Below, piece by piece: positions 15,520 to 26,702 of a stretch of DNA of 64,000 nucleotides. Positions within the stretch are counted from its first letter, which is position 1. Every line of letters begins with the position of its first letter. This DNA comes from Synechococcus sp. PCC 7502 (GTDB lineage Bacteria > Cyanobacteriota > Cyanobacteriia > Pseudanabaenales > Pseudanabaenaceae). Under the pieces are notes generated by a model. It made no database searches and was not told where the DNA came from. It was given only the letters and a program-made list of their open reading frames with translations. The DNA is taken from contig NC_019702.1 of the NCBI RefSeq assembly GCF_000317085.1, forward strand, positions 3,130,394 through 3,194,393, given 5' to 3'. Both the position numbers and the translations under genes were made by a program.

Positions 15520-18147
15520 TTAAGTATGTTCTGTTAACTGCTGAATTAATTTTGCTACTAGCCCAGTCCACCCAGTTTGATGACTTGCTCCCACCCCTGT
15601 CCCATGATCACCATGGAAGTATTCATAAAATTGAATTAAATCTTGCCAGTGGGGATCGGTTTGGAATTTTTGATTGCCATTATTGACAGGGCGATCACCA
15701 TTAGTATCTTTGCTAAAAATATTAATTAAGCGTCGAGATAATTCCACCGACACATCCCATAGAGTCATCATTTGACCAGAGCCAGAAGGGTACTCAATTG
15801 TGAAGTCATTGCCATAGTAGTGATGGAATTTTTGCAGGGATTCGATAATTAAAAAATTTACTGGCATCCAAATGGGACCACGCCAATTAGAATTTCCCCC
15901 AAATAGACCACTGGAAGATTCAGCAGGTTCATAATCCACCCGATACTCACTGCCATTTGTGCGCCAAATATAGGGATGGGAACGATGATATTTAGATAAG
16001 GCGCGAATACCATAATCACTTAAAAATTCCGCTTCATCTAACATCTTTGTGAGAATTCGTTTTAACTTGAAGCGATCGCATATTGCTAATAATCTCCTTG
16101 CTTTCATCCCTTCAGATTCCATACAGGCAACGTTATGTGCCAAATCAAAACGATGTTTAACAAACCACTCCAATCTTTTTTGGAAATTGGGAACTTGGGC
16201 AATCATATCTGGTTCGAGAATCTGCACCGCAAATAAGGGAATTAAGCCCACAAGCGATCGCACCTTCAGTTTTAGTTGCTTCCCATTTGGTAAATGTAGA
16301 ACATCGTAGTAAAAGCCGTCGTCATCATCCCATAATTCCGTATTCTCAATCCCAACCTTATTCATCGCATCGGCAATATACAGGAAATGCTCAAAAAATT
16401 TCGTAGCAATATCTTCATAAACTATATTCTCTTGAGCTAGTTCTAGGGCGATCGCTAGTAAATTCAAGCAATACATTCCCATCCAACTGGTGCCATCAGC
16501 CTGTTCCATATAGCCGCCCGTTGGCAGTTCGGCACTGCGATCGAATACCCCTATGTTATCTAATCCTAAAAAACCGCCTTCAAATACATTCTTTCCTTCC
16601 CGATCCTTACGATTTACCCACCAAGTGAAGTTTAGTAATAGTTTATGAAATACTCGCTCTAAAAATTGGCGATCGCCTGTACCATTTTGTTTTTGTTCAA
16701 TTTTATAAACTCGATAGGTTGCCCAAGCATGGACGGGAGGGTTAACATCACCAAAAGCCCATTCGTAGGCAGGAATCTGTCCATTGGGGTGCATGTACCA
16801 CTCACGGGTGATTAAATCCAGTTGACTTTTAGCAAAATCGGGATCAATCATAGCAAAAGGAATGGCATGGAAAGCCGAATCCCAAGCTGCAAACCACGGA
16901 TACTCCCACTTATCTGGCATAGAGAGAATGTCTTCAGTTTCTAGATGAAACCAATGGCTATTACGACCATTCTTACGATTTGGGGATACCATAGGAAAGT
17001 CTGGATCGCCATCTAGCCATTTTTTTACAGAAAAGTTGTAATACTGTTTACTCCATAGCATTCCTGCAAATGCTTGACGTTGGATACTTCGCAGATCATC
17101 AGTCATTGTAAAGGGCGAAATCTCATGATAAAACTGATTTGCTTCCTCTAATCTCTTGGCAAATATTTCATCATTGATAGAGGCAGCCTCAGCAGCTATA
17201 TTACTTAAACGCAGATTGACAATTTTAGTAGCCCCCGATGCGATCGCCAATTCATAATGCGCCGATGCTTTTGTGCCTTTTTGTTCTGGATTTACAGCAT
17301 CCTTCTGACCATGCACAATATAATTATTAATCCCATCTTTGACATATTTAGAACCATTTGCCGCTCCAAATAACTTTTGATAGTTGGTTTCATTATCTGT
17401 GAATAGGATTTCTTCACAATTCGGACAATGCAGCCACATCTTATCGAGGTTTGGGCTTTCCGCAACTATGGTAGTCTCGTTAGTTAATGCCAAAAATGGC
17501 TTGTCGTCACTATTGTGCCATACCCAAGTATTGCGAAACCACAGCGTTGGTAGGAGATGAATGCTGGCTGTGTCAGGTGCGTGATTGGTAATGCTAATCT
17601 GAATGGAAATATCCTGTGGTGAGTGTTTGGCATATTCAATGCTTACATCAAAATAGCGATCGCCTGCAAATACATCTGTATCTAATAGCTCGTATTCTGG
17701 TTGATTTCTGCCCCGTTGCTTATTCTCAGCTACTAACTGATCGTAGGGGAAAGGTGCCTGTGGATACTTATACAGATACTTCATGTAGGAATGCGTGGGA
17801 GTATTATCCAAATAGAAGTAATACTCTTTGACATCTTCCCCATGATTTCCTTCGTTCCCTGTTAAACCGAATAGTCTCTCCTTAATAATTGGATCAACTC
17901 CATTCCATAGAGCGATCGCAAAGCAGAGAATTTGACGATCATCAGAAATACCCGCAATACCATCTTCCCCCCAACGATAGGCACGGGATCGAGCTTGATC
18001 ATGGGAAAAGTACTCCCAAGCAGTACCATTGTCACTATAGTCCTCCCTTACTGTCCCCCACTGCCTTTCACTGAGGTAGCACCCCCATTTTCTCCAAGGT
18101 ATGCCATTTCTTGCCTGTGTGAGTCTTATTTGTTCGGGATTAATCAT
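15520..18147 (-). CDS. GH63/MGH1-like glycoside hydrolase (glucosidase)
   Basis: This 875-residue protein belongs to the family annotated as glucosidase or MGH1-like hydrolase (start [20 protein letters not shown], then [20 protein letters not shown]). The C-terminal half is an (alpha/alpha)6 barrel: [82 protein letters not shown] (Asp near 448) and the late acidic residues are catalytic candidates. It has no signal peptide, so it is cytoplasmic. It probably releases glucose or another hexose from a storage glucoside or glucosylglycerate-like solute; the true substrate is not known. Confidence 0.85.
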
Positions 18148-18278: not shown

Positions 18279-18629
18279 TTAATTGAATAGTGAGAGTGTA
18301 TATAGTTGAGCAGTAACTCCCTTTATATATGCCTCATTATTTAGGTAGGATGTAGGAAGTCTATTAGTTTTGACTGCTGCTTTTACAACATCTTCCCCAG
18401 AAAGCTTTCCACTTCTAAAGTCCTGCATCAAGTTACCTTGAGATTTAATCCCTTGCTGTTCAAAGTATCCCTGAAATGCCAAATACGCAAGATTGAATGG
18501 GGTTAAAGATACCATCATTGTAATCTCTGCCATGGGCATCTCATTATTTACCTGAGCTTTAGCGGCTGGGGCTAAAGTTGCTGTGGAAAGGAGAAGAGTA
18601 GGAAGAAAGGCAAAAAACAGTTTTTTCAT
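18279..18629 (-). CDS. Small secreted protein of unknown function (paralogue A)
   Basis: It is 116 residues with a signal peptide (MKKLFFAFLPTLLLSTATLA, cleavage probable after AKA at about 25). The mature part has a PFNLAYLAFQGYFEQQGI motif, GKLSGEDVVKAAVKTNRLP and Y-x-V-x2-QL near the end. The same layout occurs in the gene at 22329-22688, so the two are paralogues in one gene run. No known domain is recognised. An envelope or periplasmic role is likely, possibly as a small subunit or chaperone of the neighbouring GMC oxidoreductase; that is a guess from position. Confidence 0.75.
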   Translation of the reverse strand: MKKLFFAFLPTLLLSTATLAPAAKAQVNNEMPMAEITMMVSLTPFNLAYLAFQGYFEQQGIKSQGNLMQDFRSGKLSGEDVVKAAVKTNRLPTSYLNNEAYIKGVTAQLYTLSLFN

Positions 18630-18735: not shown

Positions 18736-20274
18736 TTAACCTATCCTCTCTTTAAGGTGATCCCCAACTCGTAAAGCATTGGCGATAATAGTCAAAGTTG
18801 GATTCACAGCCGCACTGGAAGGGAAAAAAGAACCATCGACAACGTAGAGATTATGGACATCGTGGGTACGACAATTGACATCTAAAACTGAACTTTTGGC
18901 ATCTTCGCCAAATCTACAGGTGCCATTTTGATGAGCCACGGCTGCGATCGCTAGTTTTTTACGAAAATAGAGAGAACAGGGCAAAATTGAATCACCGCAG
19001 TTAATAGATTTAAGCACCTGAGTCCATCTGTTCAATAATCGATCAAAGGCTTCAGTATTATTTTCCTTATAGTTAAGGTGAATCGTTCCATTTTTAACAG
19101 TAACTCGATTATTGGGATCGGGTAAATCTTCGGCGGTAATAAACCAGTCAACAGAATGATGGGCAATCTGGTCTAAAGCCATTGTAGGAGCAAACGCAGG
19201 AGCATCCAAGGCAATCATATCCTTATTCACTTTACCTAACAGTTGAATTAATCCCATAGGATAATTAAAGTTTTTCTCACCCCAGTAAAAATCAAGGATA
19301 GCTAAGGTTTTTTGAAACTCACTGGGATTTGGTTTGGGAGTCAAGCCGATGATTGCTCCATGTTGGTGTTTCATAAAGTTTCGACCCACTTGGTCAGAAC
19401 TATTTGCCAAACCGTTAGGATGTTGATCATTGGCAGAACGCAGTAACAACGCCGCCGAGTTAATGGCTCCACAGGCAACCACGACAATATCGCTAGAGAA
19501 ATTAATAACTTGATCCTGTAGTTTGACCTCAACACTTGAGACCTCTTTCCCTGATAGACTTGTATGTAATTGTAGAACTTCCGCTTCTGTAATTAGGGTT
19601 ACATTATCTTGGGCGATCGCTGGACGAATACAGTTAATATCAGCATCACCTTTGCCATTCACCAAACAAGGAAACCCATCGCAAGTATTACAGCGAATAC
19701 AAGCTCCTAAGCGACGACTGACTTCATTTAACTTAATTGCAAGGGGTAAATTAATCGGATTCAATCCTTTTTTTTGTAAGTCATCATGGATTTCTTGGAT
19801 GCGTGGCTCATGGGATACAGGAGGATAGGGATATGGTGATGCAGTTGGAGGTTCGGTGGGGTCTTGTCCTCTGAGTCCGTGTACATCATAGAGTCGTTCG
19901 GCTTCCGTATAGTAGGGTTCAAAATCTTTATATTTAAGCATCCAAGCTGGGGATAATCCCCCTTTATGTTCTACTTCTTCAAAGTCTTTTTCCCTTAAGC
20001 GCAGCAGTGCAGCCCCATAGACCTTCGTGTTTCCACCCACCCAATATCCAGTTCCAGGATGAATTTGATTGCCATTGCTACCGTCATACCAAATTTCAGA
20101 AGTATGATAGCGATCTTTTTTGTAAACTTCCACCGTATCCCAGTTAGCCTTTTCCTGAGGGAGAAATGTGCCTCTTTCCAAAATCAGAATTTTTTTGCCA
20201 GTGGTTGCAAGGCGATAAGCAAGGGTACCCCCGCCCGCACCCGTACCAATAATAATCACATCATAATGTTCCAT
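18736..20274 (-). CDS. GMC-family FAD-dependent oxidoreductase
   Basis: This 512-residue protein oxidises alcohols or sugars. The N-terminal FAD-binding motif is VIIIGTGAGGGTLAYRLA with the acidic end LILERG (residues 32-35). The GMC signature GYWVGGNTKVYGAAL lies near 76-90. The C-terminus has AHQNGTCRFG (catalytic His) and SSAAVNPTLTIIANALR (the second active-site position is Asn). An unusual cysteine group (C192, C195, C198, C203, C215; CIRCNTCDGFPC) sits between the FAD and substrate halves. No signal peptide is seen. It follows the unknown gene at 20305 by 30 bp and is probably cotranscribed with it. A glucose or polyol substrate is suggested by the context, not shown. Confidence 0.92.
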   Translation of the reverse strand: MEHYDVIIIGTGAGGGTLAYRLATTGKKILILERGTFLPQEKANWDTVEVYKKDRYHTSEIWYDGSNGNQIHPGTGYWVGGNTKVYGAALLRLREKDFEEVEHKGGLSPAWMLKYKDFEPYYTEAERLYDVHGLRGQDPTEPPTASPYPYPPVSHEPRIQEIHDDLQKKGLNPINLPLAIKLNEVSRRLGACIRCNTCDGFPCLVNGKGDADINCIRPAIAQDNVTLITEAEVLQLHTSLSGKEVSSVEVKLQDQVINFSSDIVVVACGAINSAALLLRSANDQHPNGLANSSDQVGRNFMKHQHGAIIGLTPKPNPSEFQKTLAILDFYWGEKNFNYPMGLIQLLGKVNKDMIALDAPAFAPTMALDQIAHHSVDWFITAEDLPDPNNRVTVKNGTIHLNYKENNTEAFDRLLNRWTQVLKSINCGDSILPCSLYFRKKLAIAAVAHQNGTCRFGEDAKSSVLDVNCRTHDVHNLYVVDGSFFPSSAAVNPTLTIIANALRVGDHLKERIG

Positions 20275-21173: not shown

Positions 21174-22244
21174 TTATCTTTCAATAATTCGTAAAGCATG
21201 ACCATCGGGGTCTCTAATCAAAAAACCACGCTTAAACCCCAGAGATTGGTTTGGAATCCCAATTACATCCGTTGAGATCATTTTTGTCCCCTCCGAACGT
21301 AATTTTTGAGCGATCGCCAAAATATCTTTGACAATTAAGGTGGTTTGCCAATGCAGAAGGTCATTTGCTTGAGCATCAGCAGGAAAAGGACGACCATCAC
21401 CAGGGGTAAGGTAATTCAAAAATTCAATACCCATGCCAGAACTTGATCTTAATCCACTAATCTGCAACCTTGCCCCAAATACATGGTTTAGGTATTCTTG
21501 TTCAATCCCAAAATTCTGACTTTCTCCCACCAACCGCAAGCCCAGCAAATCACGATAAAAGCGTAAGCTACGATTAGTATCCCCAATAACGATCGCCGTA
21601 TGATCAATCCCCAAGAATATAGATGAAGACTTCCCCAAGTTTTGCCATTTGCGATCGCCCTTACCTTCGGGAAAGAAAATTAATTCTAAATTATGTCCAT
21701 CAGGGTCTTTAAAGTAAAAAGCTTGAATGCCAGCCGCCACTTTATTAGAACTTGGAATAGTCTGAGGAGCGGTCGAAGCATACTGAACTTTGAATTGACG
21801 CAAAATAGCATAGGCTTTATCCATGTCACTAACAGCGATCGCAATATGCTGAAACCATCGATCATTACTGCGGGAGTCAATGGGGATTGGTTTTCCTCTT
21901 GGTGTCAAATATTCCGTTAATTCCAGAAATTCATCACCCAAGCGGAGCTTCACCACTCGCATTCGCACCCCAAATATGCCCTGTAGGCGATCATAGGAAT
22001 TTCCCCAAACTTCAGTATCAGAGATTTTCTGGAAGGAAATAACTTCAGTATAAAACCTTAGAGATTTGTCCATATCTGAAACCGTAATTCCGATCGAATC
22101 CACAGATATTTCTGATTCGGATTTGACGTTGATCGAACTTACAGAAAATCCTTCTTCTGCCTTCGCAATCGGAGGGGTTGGAACAGAAACACCCCATGAA
22201 AGTGAGAATAAAATTGGTAATACTAGTTGATGAAACCGCAGCAT
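21174..22244 (-). CDS. Secreted protein with two VOC (glyoxalase/dioxygenase-fold) domains
   Basis: This 356-residue protein has an N-terminal signal sequence (LVLPILFSLSWGVSVPTPPI, cleavage near residue 29) followed by two vicinal-oxygen-chelate domains: about 47-195 (VDSIGITVSDMDKSLRFYTE, then HIAIAVSDMDKAY and DPDGHNLELI) and about 210-355 (IDHTAIVIGDTNRSLRFYRD, DPDGHALRIIE). His and Glu positions of the VOC metal site are present (HIAIAV, NLELI; DHTAIV, ALRIIE). Export to the periplasm is unusual for glyoxalase-type enzymes. It could act on an aldehyde, a dihydroxy compound or a peroxide formed by its GMC neighbour; the activity is unknown. Confidence 0.82.
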   Translation of the reverse strand: MLRFHQLVLPILFSLSWGVSVPTPPIAKAEEGFSVSSINVKSESEISVDSIGITVSDMDKSLRFYTEVISFQKISDTEVWGNSYDRLQGIFGVRMRVVKLRLGDEFLELTEYLTPRGKPIPIDSRSNDRWFQHIAIAVSDMDKAYAILRQFKVQYASTAPQTIPSSNKVAAGIQAFYFKDPDGHNLELIFFPEGKGDRKWQNLGKSSSIFLGIDHTAIVIGDTNRSLRFYRDLLGLRLVGESQNFGIEQEYLNHVFGARLQISGLRSSSGMGIEFLNYLTPGDGRPFPADAQANDLLHWQTTLIVKDILAIAQKLRSEGTKMISTDVIGIPNQSLGFKRGFLIRDPDGHALRIIER

Positions 22245-22328: not shown

Positions 22329-22688
22329 TTAATGTTGTCTAAACATCGTTTTTAATTGATCAGCGACGTTATTCATGTATCCCACATCCCCCAAAGCCAT
22401 AGGGGAAACTCGATTTGCCTTAATTCCAGCCTCTACTAGTTGCTTAGCAGTAACTTTACGGCTTTGAATTGCCATTGCCAATTCTGTACCACTTGGAATA
22501 TTTTGATCTTCAAATAAGCCTTGATATGCCAGATACGCCAAAATGAAAGGAGAGACACTAACATTAGGATTAACCTGTGCCATAAGATTAGAGACTTTGT
22601 TACCTATAACTCCAGCATGGGCGTTGGAAATCGCAATATTGGTTGATAGTAATAGAGCAGGTAAAGAAACTAAAAGAAGTTTTTTCAT
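22329..22688 (-). CDS. Small secreted protein of unknown function (paralogue B)
   Basis: It is 119 residues with a signal peptide (MKKLLLVSLPALLLSTNIAI, cleavage probable after AHA). The mature part repeats the features of the protein at 18279-18629: SPFILAYLAYQGLFEDQNIP, a Lys/Ala helix with LVEAGIKANRVSP, and YMNNVADQLKTMF. Both paralogues flank the GMC, unknown and VOC genes. No domain is recognised. The conserved FxLAYLAxQGxFE core suggests a structured helical protein. Confidence 0.75.
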   Translation of the reverse strand: MKKLLLVSLPALLLSTNIAISNAHAGVIGNKVSNLMAQVNPNVSVSPFILAYLAYQGLFEDQNIPSGTELAMAIQSRKVTAKQLVEAGIKANRVSPMALGDVGYMNNVADQLKTMFRQH

Positions 22689-22808
22689 GATCGTAGTTCA
22701 GAATATATTTTTTCTTCCCTTCACTATTAACTAAAAACATGAAATCCTGCTGAAGTAAAAGTAAGAGCGAGATAAATACTTACTTAAAAACTTAAAATCA
22801 TGGCGAGA

Positions 22809-23603
22809 TTATAGTTCACAACTCTTACAACAACTAGAACTCAAGCAAGGTGTAGAAGTATTTGGGTAAAGTTTACAGCAAATTTGGGAGTGATATTTTT
22901 TCCTGCCTAAACGTAGATATAACTCCGCTGCTAATAGCATTCCTAGAGGAGGAGCTAAAAAATAAATCCACTGGCTCTGCCATATCTGAGCTACCATTGC
23001 GGAACCCAAACTGCGGGCAGGATTGATACTCATACCTGAAATTGGAGCTTCAAAAGTGATATAAACTGCTACTAAAATTCCTGAAAATACGCCTGTTAAT
23101 TGTGAAAGTTGTGATTGATTGACCTGCAAAACCATGATCATTAAGCCAAAGGATATAAGTAGTTCTGCCAGAAAAGCCCCAAATTCTCCTGCCACTCCTG
23201 GTAAGGTCACAATATAGTTAACCGCTGGATCGGCGATCGCACCACCAATTAAGACTCCTGCAACCCATACCCCTAAAATTCCCCCAAAACACTGAAAAAG
23301 TACATAGAAAATGGCATCTAAGGTGGGGATTTTCTGAAGTCGCCAAAAAGTTAACGTCACCGCAGGATTTATATGCGCTCCAGATCGCTTGCCCCAAGGT
23401 GAATAAATAATCGTAATTGCTGTTAATCCCATTAATATGCCAATTATAAATCTGCGAATTAGTGGCTCGGCGATCGCCTGACACAGAGGAGAACTAGGAA
23501 GTTCAAAGATAGCTGTCGCTAAGGTTGCTAAAACCATGAATATTCCCAAACCAACAGCCTCAATCCAGTACTCAATCCGAATTACTGCTCTTGATAGTTC
23601 CAA
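22809..23603 (-). CDS. MIP-family channel (aquaporin/glyceroporin) with a Cys-rich C-terminal tail
   Basis: This 264-residue protein has six transmembrane segments and both half-helix motifs, HINPAVTLTFW and SINPARSLGSAM. It would pass water or a small neutral solute. The selectivity residues cannot be assigned with confidence. The last 25 or so residues hold six cysteines (QICCKLYPNTSTPC, SSSCCKSCEL), which is not typical of the family and suggests metal binding or redox control. Translation appears to start at a TTG (23603) inside the end of the SDR gene, a 22-bp overlap that indicates coupling. Confidence 0.85.
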   Translation of the reverse strand: MELSRAVIRIEYWIEAVGLGIFMVLATLATAIFELPSSPLCQAIAEPLIRRFIIGILMGLTAITIIYSPWGKRSGAHINPAVTLTFWRLQKIPTLDAIFYVLFQCFGGILGVWVAGVLIGGAIADPAVNYIVTLPGVAGEFGAFLAELLISFGLMIMVLQVNQSQLSQLTGVFSGILVAVYITFEAPISGMSINPARSLGSAMVAQIWQSQWIYFLAPPLGMLLAAELYLRLGRKKYHSQICCKLYPNTSTPCLSSSCCKSCEL

Positions 23604-24388
23604 AGCAATCCCCCATCCACAAATAACGTGGAACCAGTAATATAATCGGCATCAGAGGAAGCAAGAAATGCCACCATAGCTGACACATCCGCAGTTTGTC
23701 CTAATCGTTTTAGGGGGATATTGTTCAGCAAAGCACCCAATTTTTGGGGATCATTGAGTAGATTAGTATTTATGGGCGTTGTAATTGCGCCGGGGGCAAC
23801 GTTATTTATTGTGATCCCAAGACCACCAAGTTCCACCGAGAGATTACGCATCATCATCTTTAATGCTCCTTTACTAGCACAGTAGGCAGTAAAGTGAGGA
23901 AATGGTAACTCCTCATGGACGGAACTAATATTTATAATGCGCCCACCTCGCTTGTCCGTTTTAATTTGGTGCTTCACAAATGCTTGAGTTGCAAAAAAGA
24001 CACCCTTGAAGTTAATATTCATAACTGCTTCAAAGTCCTGCTCAGTCACATCCCAAAAATCAGCATGCTTTTCAATGCCAGCATTATTGACAAGAATATC
24101 AAGGGTACCAAAATGTTCAATGCTTTGATCAATCAGTCGGCGCACATCCTCAACCATACCCAGGTCAGCACCGATACTGTAGCCTCGATCATTATCACAA
24201 AATCCCTCTGCCATCATACATTCTCCACCCAGAGCTTTGATCTCTTTTAGGGTTTCTTCGGCTCCTTGGGGATTAGAGCGATAGTTAACAATAACCTTGG
24301 CTCCTTCCTGTGCCAATCTCACCGCAATGCCTTGCCCAATTCCGCCACTACTCCCAGTAACTAAAGCAACCTTACCATTCAGTTTCAT
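23582..24388 (-). CDS. SDR-family oxidoreductase, glucose 1-dehydrogenase type
   Basis: This 268-residue classical short-chain dehydrogenase has cofactor motif TGSSGGIGQGIAVRLA, NNAG (LVNNAGIEK), active-site Ser in IINISSVHE and Y-x3-K in AYCASKGAL. The ending TLFVDGGLLWNYQEQ is the usual end of glucose 1-dehydrogenases. It probably oxidises glucose (or a similar sugar) with NAD(P)+. The insertion around GFCDNDRGYSIGADLG, before the NNAG strand, is longer than in many SDRs. It lies between the FNR/ferredoxin reductase gene and the aquaporin gene, with which it overlaps. Confidence 0.88.
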   Translation of the reverse strand: MKLNGKVALVTGSSGGIGQGIAVRLAQEGAKVIVNYRSNPQGAEETLKEIKALGGECMMAEGFCDNDRGYSIGADLGMVEDVRRLIDQSIEHFGTLDILVNNAGIEKHADFWDVTEQDFEAVMNINFKGVFFATQAFVKHQIKTDKRGGRIINISSVHEELPFPHFTAYCASKGALKMMMRNLSVELGGLGITINNVAPGAITTPINTNLLNDPQKLGALLNNIPLKRLGQTADVSAMVAFLASSDADYITGSTLFVDGGLLWNYQEQ

Positions 24389-24500
24389 TGTTTTTCTCCC
24401 TAAAAGTTAGTGATTTTAAAAAACTCTTTACTCGAAGCAATCAATATATATTCAGGACTACATGAAGCTAAATTCGGAGTAGAACAAAAACTATTAATCT

Positions 24501-25883
24501 TTAAATATCTAAAACCACCCTTGAAGTTTTAGGTGTAGAAACGCAAATCAGAACCGAACCCTCATCAATAAAAGCGGTAGGAGGTTCCTTGTAAATCACC
24601 TCTCCTTCAATAATTCCGCACATACAGGTACCACAAATTCCCGCACGGCAACTATAATCAGGATATATATCATTTGCCTCAGCCAACTCTAAAATCGAAC
24701 CATCATCTGGATGCCAATTAAGAGTTTTACCTGATTTATTAAATACAACCTCCACAGGATCACTCCCTTTTCCCTTACCACTATTCATGTCTCGCAATGG
24801 TTGTTCTTGTTTCGGTAAAATCTTAGTGAAAGACTCAAATAAAACCTTACTATCTGGTACCCCCCATTCTCTTAATCCATCTCTGAGAGAATCCATAAAC
24901 GACGGGGAACCACACAAATAATATTCTGCTTGGGTGGAACCATATAATTTCTCCATTATTTCTGGAGCCACCATCTCTTTAATCAAAGCCACGTCAACAT
25001 ATCCCTTATGGTGATATCGATCCAGATCATTTTCCTTAGGTTGACTATAGCAGTAAATAACATGCAGATTGGGATTAATGGCAGCGATCGCCCCAATTTC
25101 TTCACGAAAAGCATGTGAACTTCCATCTCTAGCTCCATGTAAGAACCAAATATGTCGGCTCGGGTTTAGTAAACTTATTGCCTTTACCATGCTAATCATG
25201 GGCGTAATCCCGACTCCATTACTAATTAAAATAGCGGGATTAGAACTATTAACATCAATTATGAATTTACCCGTAGGCGGTTTTGCCAAAATAATAGAAC
25301 CTTCTTGGATGTGATCATGCATGAAATTAGAAGCTATCCCGGGTGGAACAATCATATCCGAAGGAGCAGGCTCTCGCTTAATTGATAGTCGATAATACTT
25401 AGGAGGTTGTGAATAATCAGATAAAGAATAGGTGCGAATTGCGGGTTTGGATTGATCAGGAATATCGAGCTTAATTGTTAAGAACTGCCCAGGAATAAAA
25501 TTGGGAATACTTTCACCATCATTGGGAATGAGATAAAAAGATGTAATGCCATCACTTTCTTTGACTTTACGATTAACCTTAAATTCTCGCCAATCTTGCC
25601 ATACAATGACTTCAGATTCAATCTTTGTTACTACAGATTCCTGTTCTGATGATTCCTTTGTTTGAGGTTGTGACAATTCACTTTTAACTATAAGCCCTGT
25701 TCCTGCTCCAATTCCAGCACTAGCCAAGGAAGCCCAGACGATATATTTTTGCCAATCTTCATTTTTGGGATTTACAAAAAATAAAATAGCGGTTAAGGGA
25801 ATGGTCACCAAAGAACTTAAAAAAAATCCAGCAGCGATCGCTCTTAAGAATGGATTAGAAATTTGTTTAATATCTTCTAGCAT
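24501..25883 (-). CDS. Membrane-anchored FNR-type reductase with C-terminal [2Fe-2S] ferredoxin domain
   Basis: In this 460-residue protein, two hydrophobic segments (about 13-34 and 47-65) anchor the N-terminus. An FAD-binding barrel follows (IRTYSLSDY near 147-155), an NAD(P)-binding domain (ISNGVGITPMISMVKA, YYLCGSPSFMDSLRDGL) and a plant-type ferredoxin domain with C-R-A-G-I-C-G-T-C and a fourth Cys in VLICVS. Electrons would pass NAD(P)H - FAD - [2Fe-2S] - acceptor, as in Vanillate-demethylase-type or flavohaemoprotein-like reductases. The stop of the cupin gene lies 9 bp upstream of its ATG, so the two are one operon. The electron acceptor is unknown; the GMC enzyme or a membrane partner is possible. 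Confidence 0.9.
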   Translation of the reverse strand: MLEDIKQISNPFLRAIAAGFFLSSLVTIPLTAILFFVNPKNEDWQKYIVWASLASAGIGAGTGLIVKSELSQPQTKESSEQESVVTKIESEVIVWQDWREFKVNRKVKESDGITSFYLIPNDGESIPNFIPGQFLTIKLDIPDQSKPAIRTYSLSDYSQPPKYYRLSIKREPAPSDMIVPPGIASNFMHDHIQEGSIILAKPPTGKFIIDVNSSNPAILISNGVGITPMISMVKAISLLNPSRHIWFLHGARDGSSHAFREEIGAIAAINPNLHVIYCYSQPKENDLDRYHHKGYVDVALIKEMVAPEIMEKLYGSTQAEYYLCGSPSFMDSLRDGLREWGVPDSKVLFESFTKILPKQEQPLRDMNSGKGKGSDPVEVVFNKSGKTLNWHPDDGSILELAEANDIYPDYSCRAGICGTCMCGIIEGEVIYKEPPTAFIDEGSVLICVSTPKTSRVVLDI

Positions 25884-25891
25884 TGGCTTGT

Positions 25892-26263
25892 TTAACCATC
25901 ATTCCCATTCAAAAAGACCTTTTCATAACCTGCATCGGTAGGAGAAACAACTAAAATAAAAACTAATGGATATTTCCCATGATTAAATACTCCATGCACA
26001 GAGGCTATGGGAGCCACTATCACATCCCCTACCTCAATTATTTTGGTGGTACCAGTTTGATCTAAATAATATTTACCTGTACCACTTAAAATTGTCCATG
26101 TATCCTGTCCATAGGGATGAATGTGCGGCGAAATTTCCTGATTAGGTTTAATAAACCACGCTACAACTGTTGCATCTTTGGATTCTGTAACCACTGAACG
26201 AATGGGTTCGTCATCTGTGGGTTGAAAATAATCAGAACTCTTAAATATCCTAGTTGTAGTCAT
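25892..26263 (-). CDS. Cupin-domain protein
   Basis: This 123-residue single cupin has metal ligands visible in EISPHIHPYGQDTW (His, His, Gln or Glu) and VHGVFNHG in the second motif, with IVAPIASVHGVF between them. It has no signal peptide. Cupins of this size serve as small oxidases, isomerases or ligand sensors; no function can be fixed. It sits 9 bp upstream of the reductase gene on the same strand. Confidence 0.82.
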   Translation of the reverse strand: MTTTRIFKSSDYFQPTDDEPIRSVVTESKDATVVAWFIKPNQEISPHIHPYGQDTWTILSGTGKYYLDQTGTTKIIEVGDVIVAPIASVHGVFNHGKYPLVFILVVSPTDAGYEKVFLNGNDG

Positions 26264-26327: not shown

Positions 26328-26702
26328 CTATTTAACTTCACTAGGATCAAACTTGGCAATTTTGCCTTTTTTAATTGCTACTACAACATCAAAGGTTGTG
26401 CAAAGAGAAATAGTAGTATCGTCTTTTTTACTATAGAGATTCACTACCATGCCAGCACCTCCGGGTTGAATACCAATGGGAGTCAGGTCTTTAGCATAGA
26501 GTTTACGCAATAAAACCGCACTTTCAGGCTTACCCTTAAGTGGAGTAATTTGATCAATCTTTTCTTGAGCAGAAGGAGCAGCGGCAATTTTTATTTCGTT
26601 TGCAGATACCTGAAAAGAAGTGGGGTTAAATGATTGGAATGGAACAGCAGAAATTGTGACAATAGCGATCGCAGTGGTAGCAAATATGGAACTGAATTTC
26701 AT
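26328..26702 (-). CDS. Secreted protein of unknown function
   Basis: It is 124 residues with a signal peptide (KFSSIFATTAIAIVTISAVP) and cleavage probably after VSA near 34. The mature domain includes KLYAKDLTPIGIQPGGAGMV and LYSKKDDTTISLCTTFDVVV, with one Cys. No recognised domain. It lies 65 bp upstream of the cupin gene, so it starts the operon that runs through the reductase gene, and 157 bp downstream of the response-regulator gene. Confidence 0.65.
   Translation of the reverse strand: MKFSSIFATTAIAIVTISAVPFQSFNPTSFQVSANEIKIAAAPSAQEKIDQITPLKGKPESAVLLRKLYAKDLTPIGIQPGGAGMVVNLYSKKDDTTISLCTTFDVVVAIKKGKIAKFDPSEVK

Follow-up and report, generated by a model that had tools for sequence, protein, structure and literature searches.

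The aquaporin encoded at positions 22809 to 23603 (minus strand) of the window, which is the whole 64,000-nucleotide stretch of DNA that we analyzed, belongs to a distinct and widely distributed subfamily of bacterial MIP channels, which has a conserved cytoplasmic cysteine module. The best single explanation of this module is a cytoplasmic Cys/His metal site, most likely for zinc; from the sequences at hand, we would give it a probability of about 0.4. It is usual to regard bacterial MIP channels as nothing more than pores. The tail described below, some residues of which vary no more than the asparagines and the arginine of the pore, marks one MIP clade across many phyla; together with the clade's own filter and its recurring sugar-oxidation neighbors, they suggest an overlooked kind of bacterial MIP that is regulated or partner-bound. 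The tail is a small, well-defined module; if it ties the pore to the enzymes encoded beside it, a solute channel would be coupled physically, and perhaps by redox, to its own metabolic pathway.

The coordinates of the original prediction are correct, although it named no strand. The channel gene encodes 264 amino acids and matched PF00230 in a Pfam search with 107.6 bits, against a curated cut-off of 25. Its reading frame starts with a TTG codon at 23603 and ends with an ordinary stop codon at 22811 to 22809; the start overlaps the stop of the upstream SDR gene, and 22 bases are common to both genes. When its own genome (3.58 Mb) was searched with the channel protein, only one locus matched at E ≤ 0.001, and there was no stop within the frame. 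The two NPA boxes are normal, as originally predicted (N79-P80-A81 and N194-P195-A196), and the pore arginine is R197. AlphaFold, given 54 family sequences as input, returned a model with a mean pLDDT of 91 and with most of the channel body above 90. In fold comparisons, which covered mainly residues 2 to 242 (i.e., the channel body, not the tail), AqpM (3ne2 and 2evu) and AQP4 came first, with Z values of 28.4 to 27.9 and identities of 27 to 31%; for AqpM (Z of 28.4), 227 residues were aligned with an rmsd of 2.7. By its predicted fold, the window channel is an ordinary MIP.

What sets it apart is its C-terminal tail, ICCKLYPNTSTPCLSSSCCKSCEL. From its sequence and comparison with relatives, we delimited the cysteine part to residues 242 to 264, CCKLYPNTSTPCLSSSCCKSCEL (22812 to 22880, minus strand); the end of the channel in letters is RKKYHSQICCKLYPNTSTPCLSSSCCKSCEL. 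The six cysteines claimed in the original prediction are present at residues 242, 243, 253, 258, 259, and 262 of 264 and are encoded in the same frame as the body. All six fall in the last 23 residues; the last 25 residues contain 6 cysteines versus 2 in the first 239. At the protein's own cysteine frequency, the binomial chance of 6 cysteines in the tail is 8e-5, but the conservation of the tail among relatives is far stronger evidence than this composition statistic.

In a search limited to one genome per species, we found 80 relatives of the channel. Seventy-seven of these end in a cysteine tail, which is degenerate in two (L062 and L064) and shortened in one (L053); the other three have a broken frame (L012), a gene cut at the contig end (L077), or no tail (L081). 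By phylum label, the relatives belong to the Cyanobacteriota (32), Nitrospirota (10), Acidobacteriota (7), Pseudomonadota (7), Methylomirabilota (5), Thermodesulfobacteriota (3), Myxococcota (3), Bacteroidota (3), Planctomycetota (2), and Ignavibacteriota, Binatota, and Chloroflexota (1 each), with 5 unlabeled. The homologous tail thus occurs in 11 named phyla, not counting the Bacteroidota, in whose three members the tail is degenerate or absent; many of the relatives are MAGs, whose phylum labels may be wrong. The intact frame and the homologous tails in relatives together rule out a frame or sequencing error as the origin of the tail. A viral origin was also considered and rejected: of 13 pattern matches in viral contigs, 0 were confirmed. 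Two relatives probably carry frameshifts of their own: L012 matches only to residue 144, and L071 has a middle stretch that could not be aligned.

In its classical form the tail reads C-x-K-L-x-H-x5-C-I-x1-2-C. Cys1, Lys3, Leu4, His6, Arg11, Cys12, and Ile13 were invariant in 55 of 55 classical members, and Ala2 and the last cysteine were at least 90% conserved; we selected these 55 proteins ourselves, leaving out the cyanobacterial cysteine-rich branch and the Bacteroidota. That cyanobacterial branch, which holds the window protein, has the form C-x-K-L-C-P-N-x4-C-x4-C-C. The window tail has Cys1, Lys3, Cys12, and a cysteine 3 to 6 residues later (C242, K244, C253, and C258/C259), and it also has C243 and C262. 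It has neither His6 nor Cys5, with Y246-P247 in that place; His6 or Cys5 is a common, not a universal, mark of the clade's tails. The window protein has thus also lost its branch's fifth-place cysteine, whereas C2 and a last cysteine are still there.

Tails could be placed in 100 of the 110 proteins examined (five identical pairs included). Among these, His6 without Cys5 was found in 77 and Cys5 without His6 in 16; one, the shortened tail of L053, had both, four had neither, and two were the degenerate tails of Bacteroidota. In the tails with neither, which are those of the window protein, L085, and two identical proteins (L006 and L089), Cys2 is present and Cys12 is followed by three more cysteines, a number that ranges from 1 to 4 across tails. 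In the window's own clade of 11 proteins, 7 of the other 10 have seven tail cysteines, and L085 has six; L002 and L003, the nearest to the window protein by path, have five. To us, the distribution of His6 and Cys5 resembles the swapping of one ligand for another within a set. On the tree, however, three to four changes suffice for both positions together, and the exchange may therefore be a single event; a test by independent pairs, of which there were only four, was without power.

Selection on the tail bears on the view that it is a functionless extension that arose by chance or is decaying. We compared codons in nine usable, partly overlapping pairs. In six of the nine, synonymous differences in the tail outnumbered amino acid differences, most clearly in L083/L084 (20 synonymous versus 4 amino acid differences in 30 codons) and L083/L088 (19 versus 2). 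The two kinds were equal in L085/L088 (1 and 1), and the reverse was found in L082/L083 (9 versus 12) and L002/L003 (1 versus 5). The latter two pairs, the variability of the tail in the cyanobacterial branch, and its loss or degeneration in four Bacteroidota are what decay would predict. Seven residues that are invariant in 55 proteins from many phyla are not, and the six pairs with a synonymous excess favor selection; we consider a functionless tail extremely improbable. Another candidate, that the tail is a module shared with other proteins, was rejected: when 58 cyanobacterial genomes were searched with a tail-only profile, 23 places matched below 1e-3, every one of them at a MIP gene. One tailed MIP (L168), on a long branch of the tree, has an insertion inside its tail (CGKLWYDDTTPCGRSDGRGTTRCIFC).

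Trees built from the channel bodies, without the tails, grouped the tailed proteins together. For the first tree we used 140 of the 169 usable rows, namely, all 106 rows with the tail pattern and 34 of the 63 without it; five identical pairs were included, and L064, with its degenerate tail, was left out. A branch with an SH-aLRT value of 100 split 109 rows, 106 of them tailed, from 31 tailless rows. The three exceptions within the clade were L077, which is cut at the contig end, and L062 and L081, both from Bacteroidota. The window channel was placed inside the clade by its body without the tail, in subclades with SH-aLRT values of 100 and 99. We then built a second tree of 139 rows with more outgroups and with L064, dropping 13 near-identical tailed rows; L202 is not in this tree because its second NPA box was unrecognized. 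Here the clade comprised 101 rows (SH-aLRT of 100; branch length, 1.61), again including the window channel, and 96 of the 101 were tailed, which disposes of the concern that relatives lack the tail. The five tailless rows were L077 and the Bacteroidota rows L062 and L064 (degenerate tail) and L081 and L199 (no tail). Several long branches meet in both trees, so that the deep forks cannot be ordered with certainty. By these trees, the tail is a feature of one MIP clade and is not peculiar to the window protein.

The expectation that MIP channels do not usually carry such a tail held in cyanobacteria. As controls we used 70 cyanobacterial MIP loci, not all of the matches but the 30 best-scoring ones and 40 that we chose. 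Eight scored above 300 bits to the family profile, and all eight were tailed (at least three cysteines); the remaining 62 scored at most 231 bits and were without the tail. The profile was built from the tailed sequences plus seven tailless ones, so that the tail itself adds to this gap in score. One of these 62, L158, a MIP outside the clade, has three tail cysteines in another arrangement (PKCKRVCGLPKSKMLNGECID).

Another of the 62, L165, has the C terminus TGKLFHVPNYRCIFKNVKVPH, which is related to the tail but holds a single cysteine. Relatives of L165 were found in 1 of 291 genomes (at E ≤ 1e-40) and in nine plasmid records, seven of which we analyzed; they come from plasmids of Nostoc, Deinococcus, Microvirga, Frondihabitans, and Spirosoma and from one cyanobacterial genome. 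This sister lineage (L165, L160, and L200 to L207) mostly has a K/R-L-x-H tail without Cys1 and without the last cysteine; L160 has no histidine at that place. In the second tree, nine sister rows form the nearest well-grouped outgroup of the cysteine-tailed clade. Their neighbors include glucose 1-dehydrogenase (three records), GH15 (two), and VOC (one), so the sister lineage resembles the clade in tail and neighbors and differs from it in the missing cysteines and in the branch of 1.61 between them. Because K/R-L-x-H occurs there without the flanking cysteines, the cysteines look like additions to an older tail, and the K-L-x-H part is probably older than they are.

This order of events matters for what the tail does. 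Since most of the cysteine-poor sister channels have His6, metal binding cannot have fixed His6 at first, which lowers the weight of a metal site and raises that of a docking or pore-mouth peptide. According to the latter explanation, K-L-x-H...R-x-I holds the SDR, GMC, or ferredoxin-reductase protein or shapes the mouth of the pore, and the cysteines only stiffen the peptide, perhaps via a shared metal or iron-sulfur site. We regard this as possible, if doubtful. It would account for the invariance of Lys, Leu, Arg, and Ile beside the cysteines and for the retention of K/R-L-x-H, next to glucose 1-dehydrogenase, GH15, or VOC genes, in the sister lineage. It would also fit the clade's loop-B motif IIYSPWGK and D96, which are invariant or nearly so and are conserved together with the tail; both are expected to face the cytoplasm, the same side as the tail. 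The neighboring genes are described next.

The channel gene belongs to a run of minus-strand genes that extends from 26702 down to 15520. The run begins with a small secreted-looking protein (26328 to 26702), a small cupin-like protein identified by eye (25892 to 26263), an FAD/NAD reductase with a 2Fe-2S ferredoxin domain (24501 to 25883), and the channel's upstream partner, a glucose-1-dehydrogenase-like SDR oxidoreductase (23582 to 24388), the last two assigned by family searches. After the channel come a second small secreted-looking protein (22329 to 22688), a two-domain VOC (glyoxalase-fold) protein found by family searches and, by eye, probably secreted (21174 to 22244), a DUF5996-like protein that scored below the cut-off, a GMC oxidoreductase identified by Pfam (18736 to 20274), a third small secreted-looking protein (18279 to 18629), and an MGH1-like/GH63 glucosidase (15520 to 18147; PF22422, 1.3e-22). 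The second and third small proteins (119 and 116 amino acids) flank the VOC-GMC part, are paralogous (39% identical), and had no match in Pfam or NCBIfam. The first is 63% identical to an aquaporin neighbor in L002, whose cluster comprises L002, L003, and L028 and has no Pfam match. A scan of positions 22600 to 26000 gave 11 promoter-like sites, versus 10.4 expected, and 0 terminator-like sites.

Neighborhoods were readable at 77 of the 80 relatives' loci (the channel's open reading frame was missed in L049, L076, and L078). The recurrent clusters were GMC (43 loci), SDR (30), MGH1-like glucosidase (23), VOC (20), an unnamed small protein without a Pfam match (18), HbpS-like (17), SMP-30/gluconolactonase (17), DM13 (13), ferredoxin-FAD reductase (11), GDE_C glucosidase (10), glucose dehydrogenase (9), and FMN reductase (7). 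We named clusters by running Pfam on most representatives, except that GMC, SDR, VOC, and ferredoxin-reductase were named from their window counterparts and by eye; the SDR count is the weakest, because SDRs are a common family and our clustering of them was loose. At least one of eleven counted clusters was present at 72 of the 77 loci, and at least one of six sugar-type clusters at 68; the five loci without any of the eleven include some with short flanks. Of 213 members of the eleven clusters, 203 are on the channel's strand. Within about 1.5 kb, GMC genes were found at 12 of 22 tailed loci versus 0 of 37 other MIP loci (Fisher P = 6e-7, kinship of the loci being ignored); SDR, MGH1, and VOC genes were that close at 3, 3, and 2 of the 22. 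Existing annotations agree in part. Azospirillum brasilense has SDR, aquaporin, GMC, VOC, FAD-dependent oxidoreductase, amylo-alpha-1,6-glucosidase, and glucosidase genes, and Nostoc sp. C052 has DM13, glucose 1-dehydrogenase, FMN reductase, aquaporin, cupin, and 2Fe-2S protein genes, followed by egtD, two msrA genes, and a peroxiredoxin-like gene; the Aulosira and Aureibacter loci have little of the neighbor set. The Bacteroidota L062, L064, and L081 keep the same types of neighbors despite their degenerate or absent tails. The original prediction had suggested that a tail that binds a metal or senses thiol redox state would fit the redox genes beside it. Redox genes do adjoin the channel, but they look like genes for sugar/aldose oxidation rather than for thiol redox.

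For a docked partner, these neighborhoods are two-sided. The neighbors share the channel's strand, and the GMC protein often has a cysteine cluster of its own: C-x2-C-x2-C-x4-C in the window (CIRCNTCDGFPC), found in 36 of 44 neighborhood GMC proteins and possibly an iron-sulfur site. However, none of the proposed partners is at all loci, as the GMC and SDR counts and the five loci without any recurrent neighbor indicate, and some GMC proteins beside tailed channels do not have the cluster (L020, L038, L061, L072 to L075, and one of the two in L006).

The same loci bear on a thiol redox switch, in which disulfides or a reaction with H2O2 would open or close the channel. The tail's vicinal and closely spaced cysteines would suit such a switch, the adjoining flavin oxidoreductases may make H2O2, and the Nostoc sp. 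C052 locus has its msrA, egtD, and peroxiredoxin-like genes nearby. Disulfides would not require the invariant His, Lys, Leu, Arg, and Ile or the His/Cys pattern, however, and the varying number of cysteines after Cys12 also speaks against a switch. In addition, the termini of MIP channels lie in the cytoplasm, where the surroundings of the thiols are reducing; this favors a metal over a disulfide. Although a metal or thiol role of the tail, as first proposed, is plausible, we consider the switch itself rather unlikely. Thiols also bind arsenite, which NIPs and GlpF, as MIP channels, let pass. The tail might therefore scavenge or sense thiol-binding toxins such as arsenite or mercury as they pass the channel, but 0 ars or mer genes were found among the annotated window neighbors and cluster representatives, and the conserved noncysteine residues would be left unexplained; this role seems very unlikely.

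We favor a metal site because a conserved Cys1-Cys12-Cys15/16 set, apparently gained in this clade, surrounds a histidine, because one branch has a cysteine in place of that histidine, and because the compartment is reducing; the His6/Cys5 pattern is what would be expected if one ligand were exchanged and the set kept. As we picture it, cysteines were added in this clade to an older K/R-L-x-H tail, which thereby turned into a small site in which, most likely, one Zn2+ would be held by Cys1, His6, Cys12, and Cys15/16; in one cyanobacterial branch the metal would be held by cysteines only, with spare ones. The metal would fold the tail against the channel's inner mouth, and the folded tail might then stabilize or gate the pore or dock a partner. 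Counting against a metal are the window tail itself, with neither His6 nor Cys5, and the Bacteroidota L062, L064, L081, and L199, which are without the module. The window tail was modeled with moderate confidence, the pLDDT values being 83 (residues 241 to 250), 76 (251 to 260), and 48 (261 to 264), and that of one classical member with low values (47, 49, and 35). AlphaFold2 puts no metals into its models, and so these tail models neither back nor exclude a metal site. Metal site, docking peptide, and thiol switch are not mutually exclusive. The broader proposal that a cytoplasmic zinc or iron-sulfur module on the older K-L-x-H tail gates the pore or ties it to the adjoining sugar-oxidizing enzymes is, as judged from sequence comparisons, fairly doubtful.

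The pore of the clade also has its own character. Filter positions, assigned through alignment with AQP4, are M58, I182, M191, and R197 in the window channel. In the 106 tailed rows the four positions are M (99), I (6), or V (1); I (80) or V (26); M (78), F (24), or T (4); and R (106). In the 63 other rows, which include the clade members without a recognized tail (L062, L064, L077, and L081) and two identical pairs among the nontail loci (L103/L130 and L105/L128), they are mostly F (58), H (36) or A (19), T (32) or A (20), and R (63). The last position of the first NPA box in the tailed rows is A in 59, S in 29 (NPS), V in 17 (NPV), and C in 1. A filter without the water-channel histidine suggests other or additional solutes. 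The channel may carry a small neutral solute tied to the adjoining sugar-oxidation enzymes, and not water alone; from gene context only, the candidates would be glycerol, another small polyol, water, or H2O2.

Several known systems resemble the clade in part. The aquaglyceroporin GlpF has the filter W-G-F-R, which differs from the window's M-I-M-R, and GlpF chains matched at 4e-6 and weaker. In the plant PIP2 SoPIP2;1, a divalent metal at the cytoplasmic face joins loop D to N-terminal acidic residues and gates the channel; an inner-face metal would work alike here, but the candidate site in the clade is the Cys/His module at the C terminus. Zinc knuckles and Cys3His zinc fingers have about 16 residues and four Cys/His ligands. 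The clade's tail is similar in both respects, and many members have C-x2-C-G, but its ligand order is C-x4-H-x5-C-x2-3-C, and the tail profile matched none of the solved structures (best E, 0.9). Among solved structures, the best sequence matches of the window channel were AQP4 and NIP2-1, and the tail lay outside the best-matching stretch in all 57 of the 57 solved sequences matched. AqpZ shares with the window channel the MIP fold, two NPA motifs, and the pore arginine, but the channel scored only 63.9 bits against the AqpZ model NF003838 of NCBIfam (cut-off, 256), and by sequence the solved AqpZ chains align to residue 235 at most, before the tail. The AqpZ filter is F43/H174/T183/R189 (PMC11316224), i.e., F-H-T-R, and thus differs from M-I-M-R as well.

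The clade also resembles the AQPX/AqpX MIPs, which are described as largely prokaryotic, uncharacterized, and with an aliphatic, nonaromatic filter (Tesan et al. 2021, PMC8355241), as in the clade. The same text says that kinetoplastid AQPX is without the pore arginine at LE2, whereas the clade keeps arginine in 106 of 106 rows and is by that description set apart from kinetoplastid AQPX; the word "cysteine" is absent from its main text (PMC8355241). We looked for a dedicated curated family and rejected that possibility: Pfam gave MIP only, and NCBIfam gave only general or other-type models, all below cut-off for the window channel. Thus, no family model searched in Pfam or NCBIfam names the clade's tail, filter, and genomic setting. 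We found no description of this tail in the literature searched, most subscription papers lying outside that search. One PHROG of unknown function matched weakly, and the letters CAKLHH occurred in one paper, on a moth genome.
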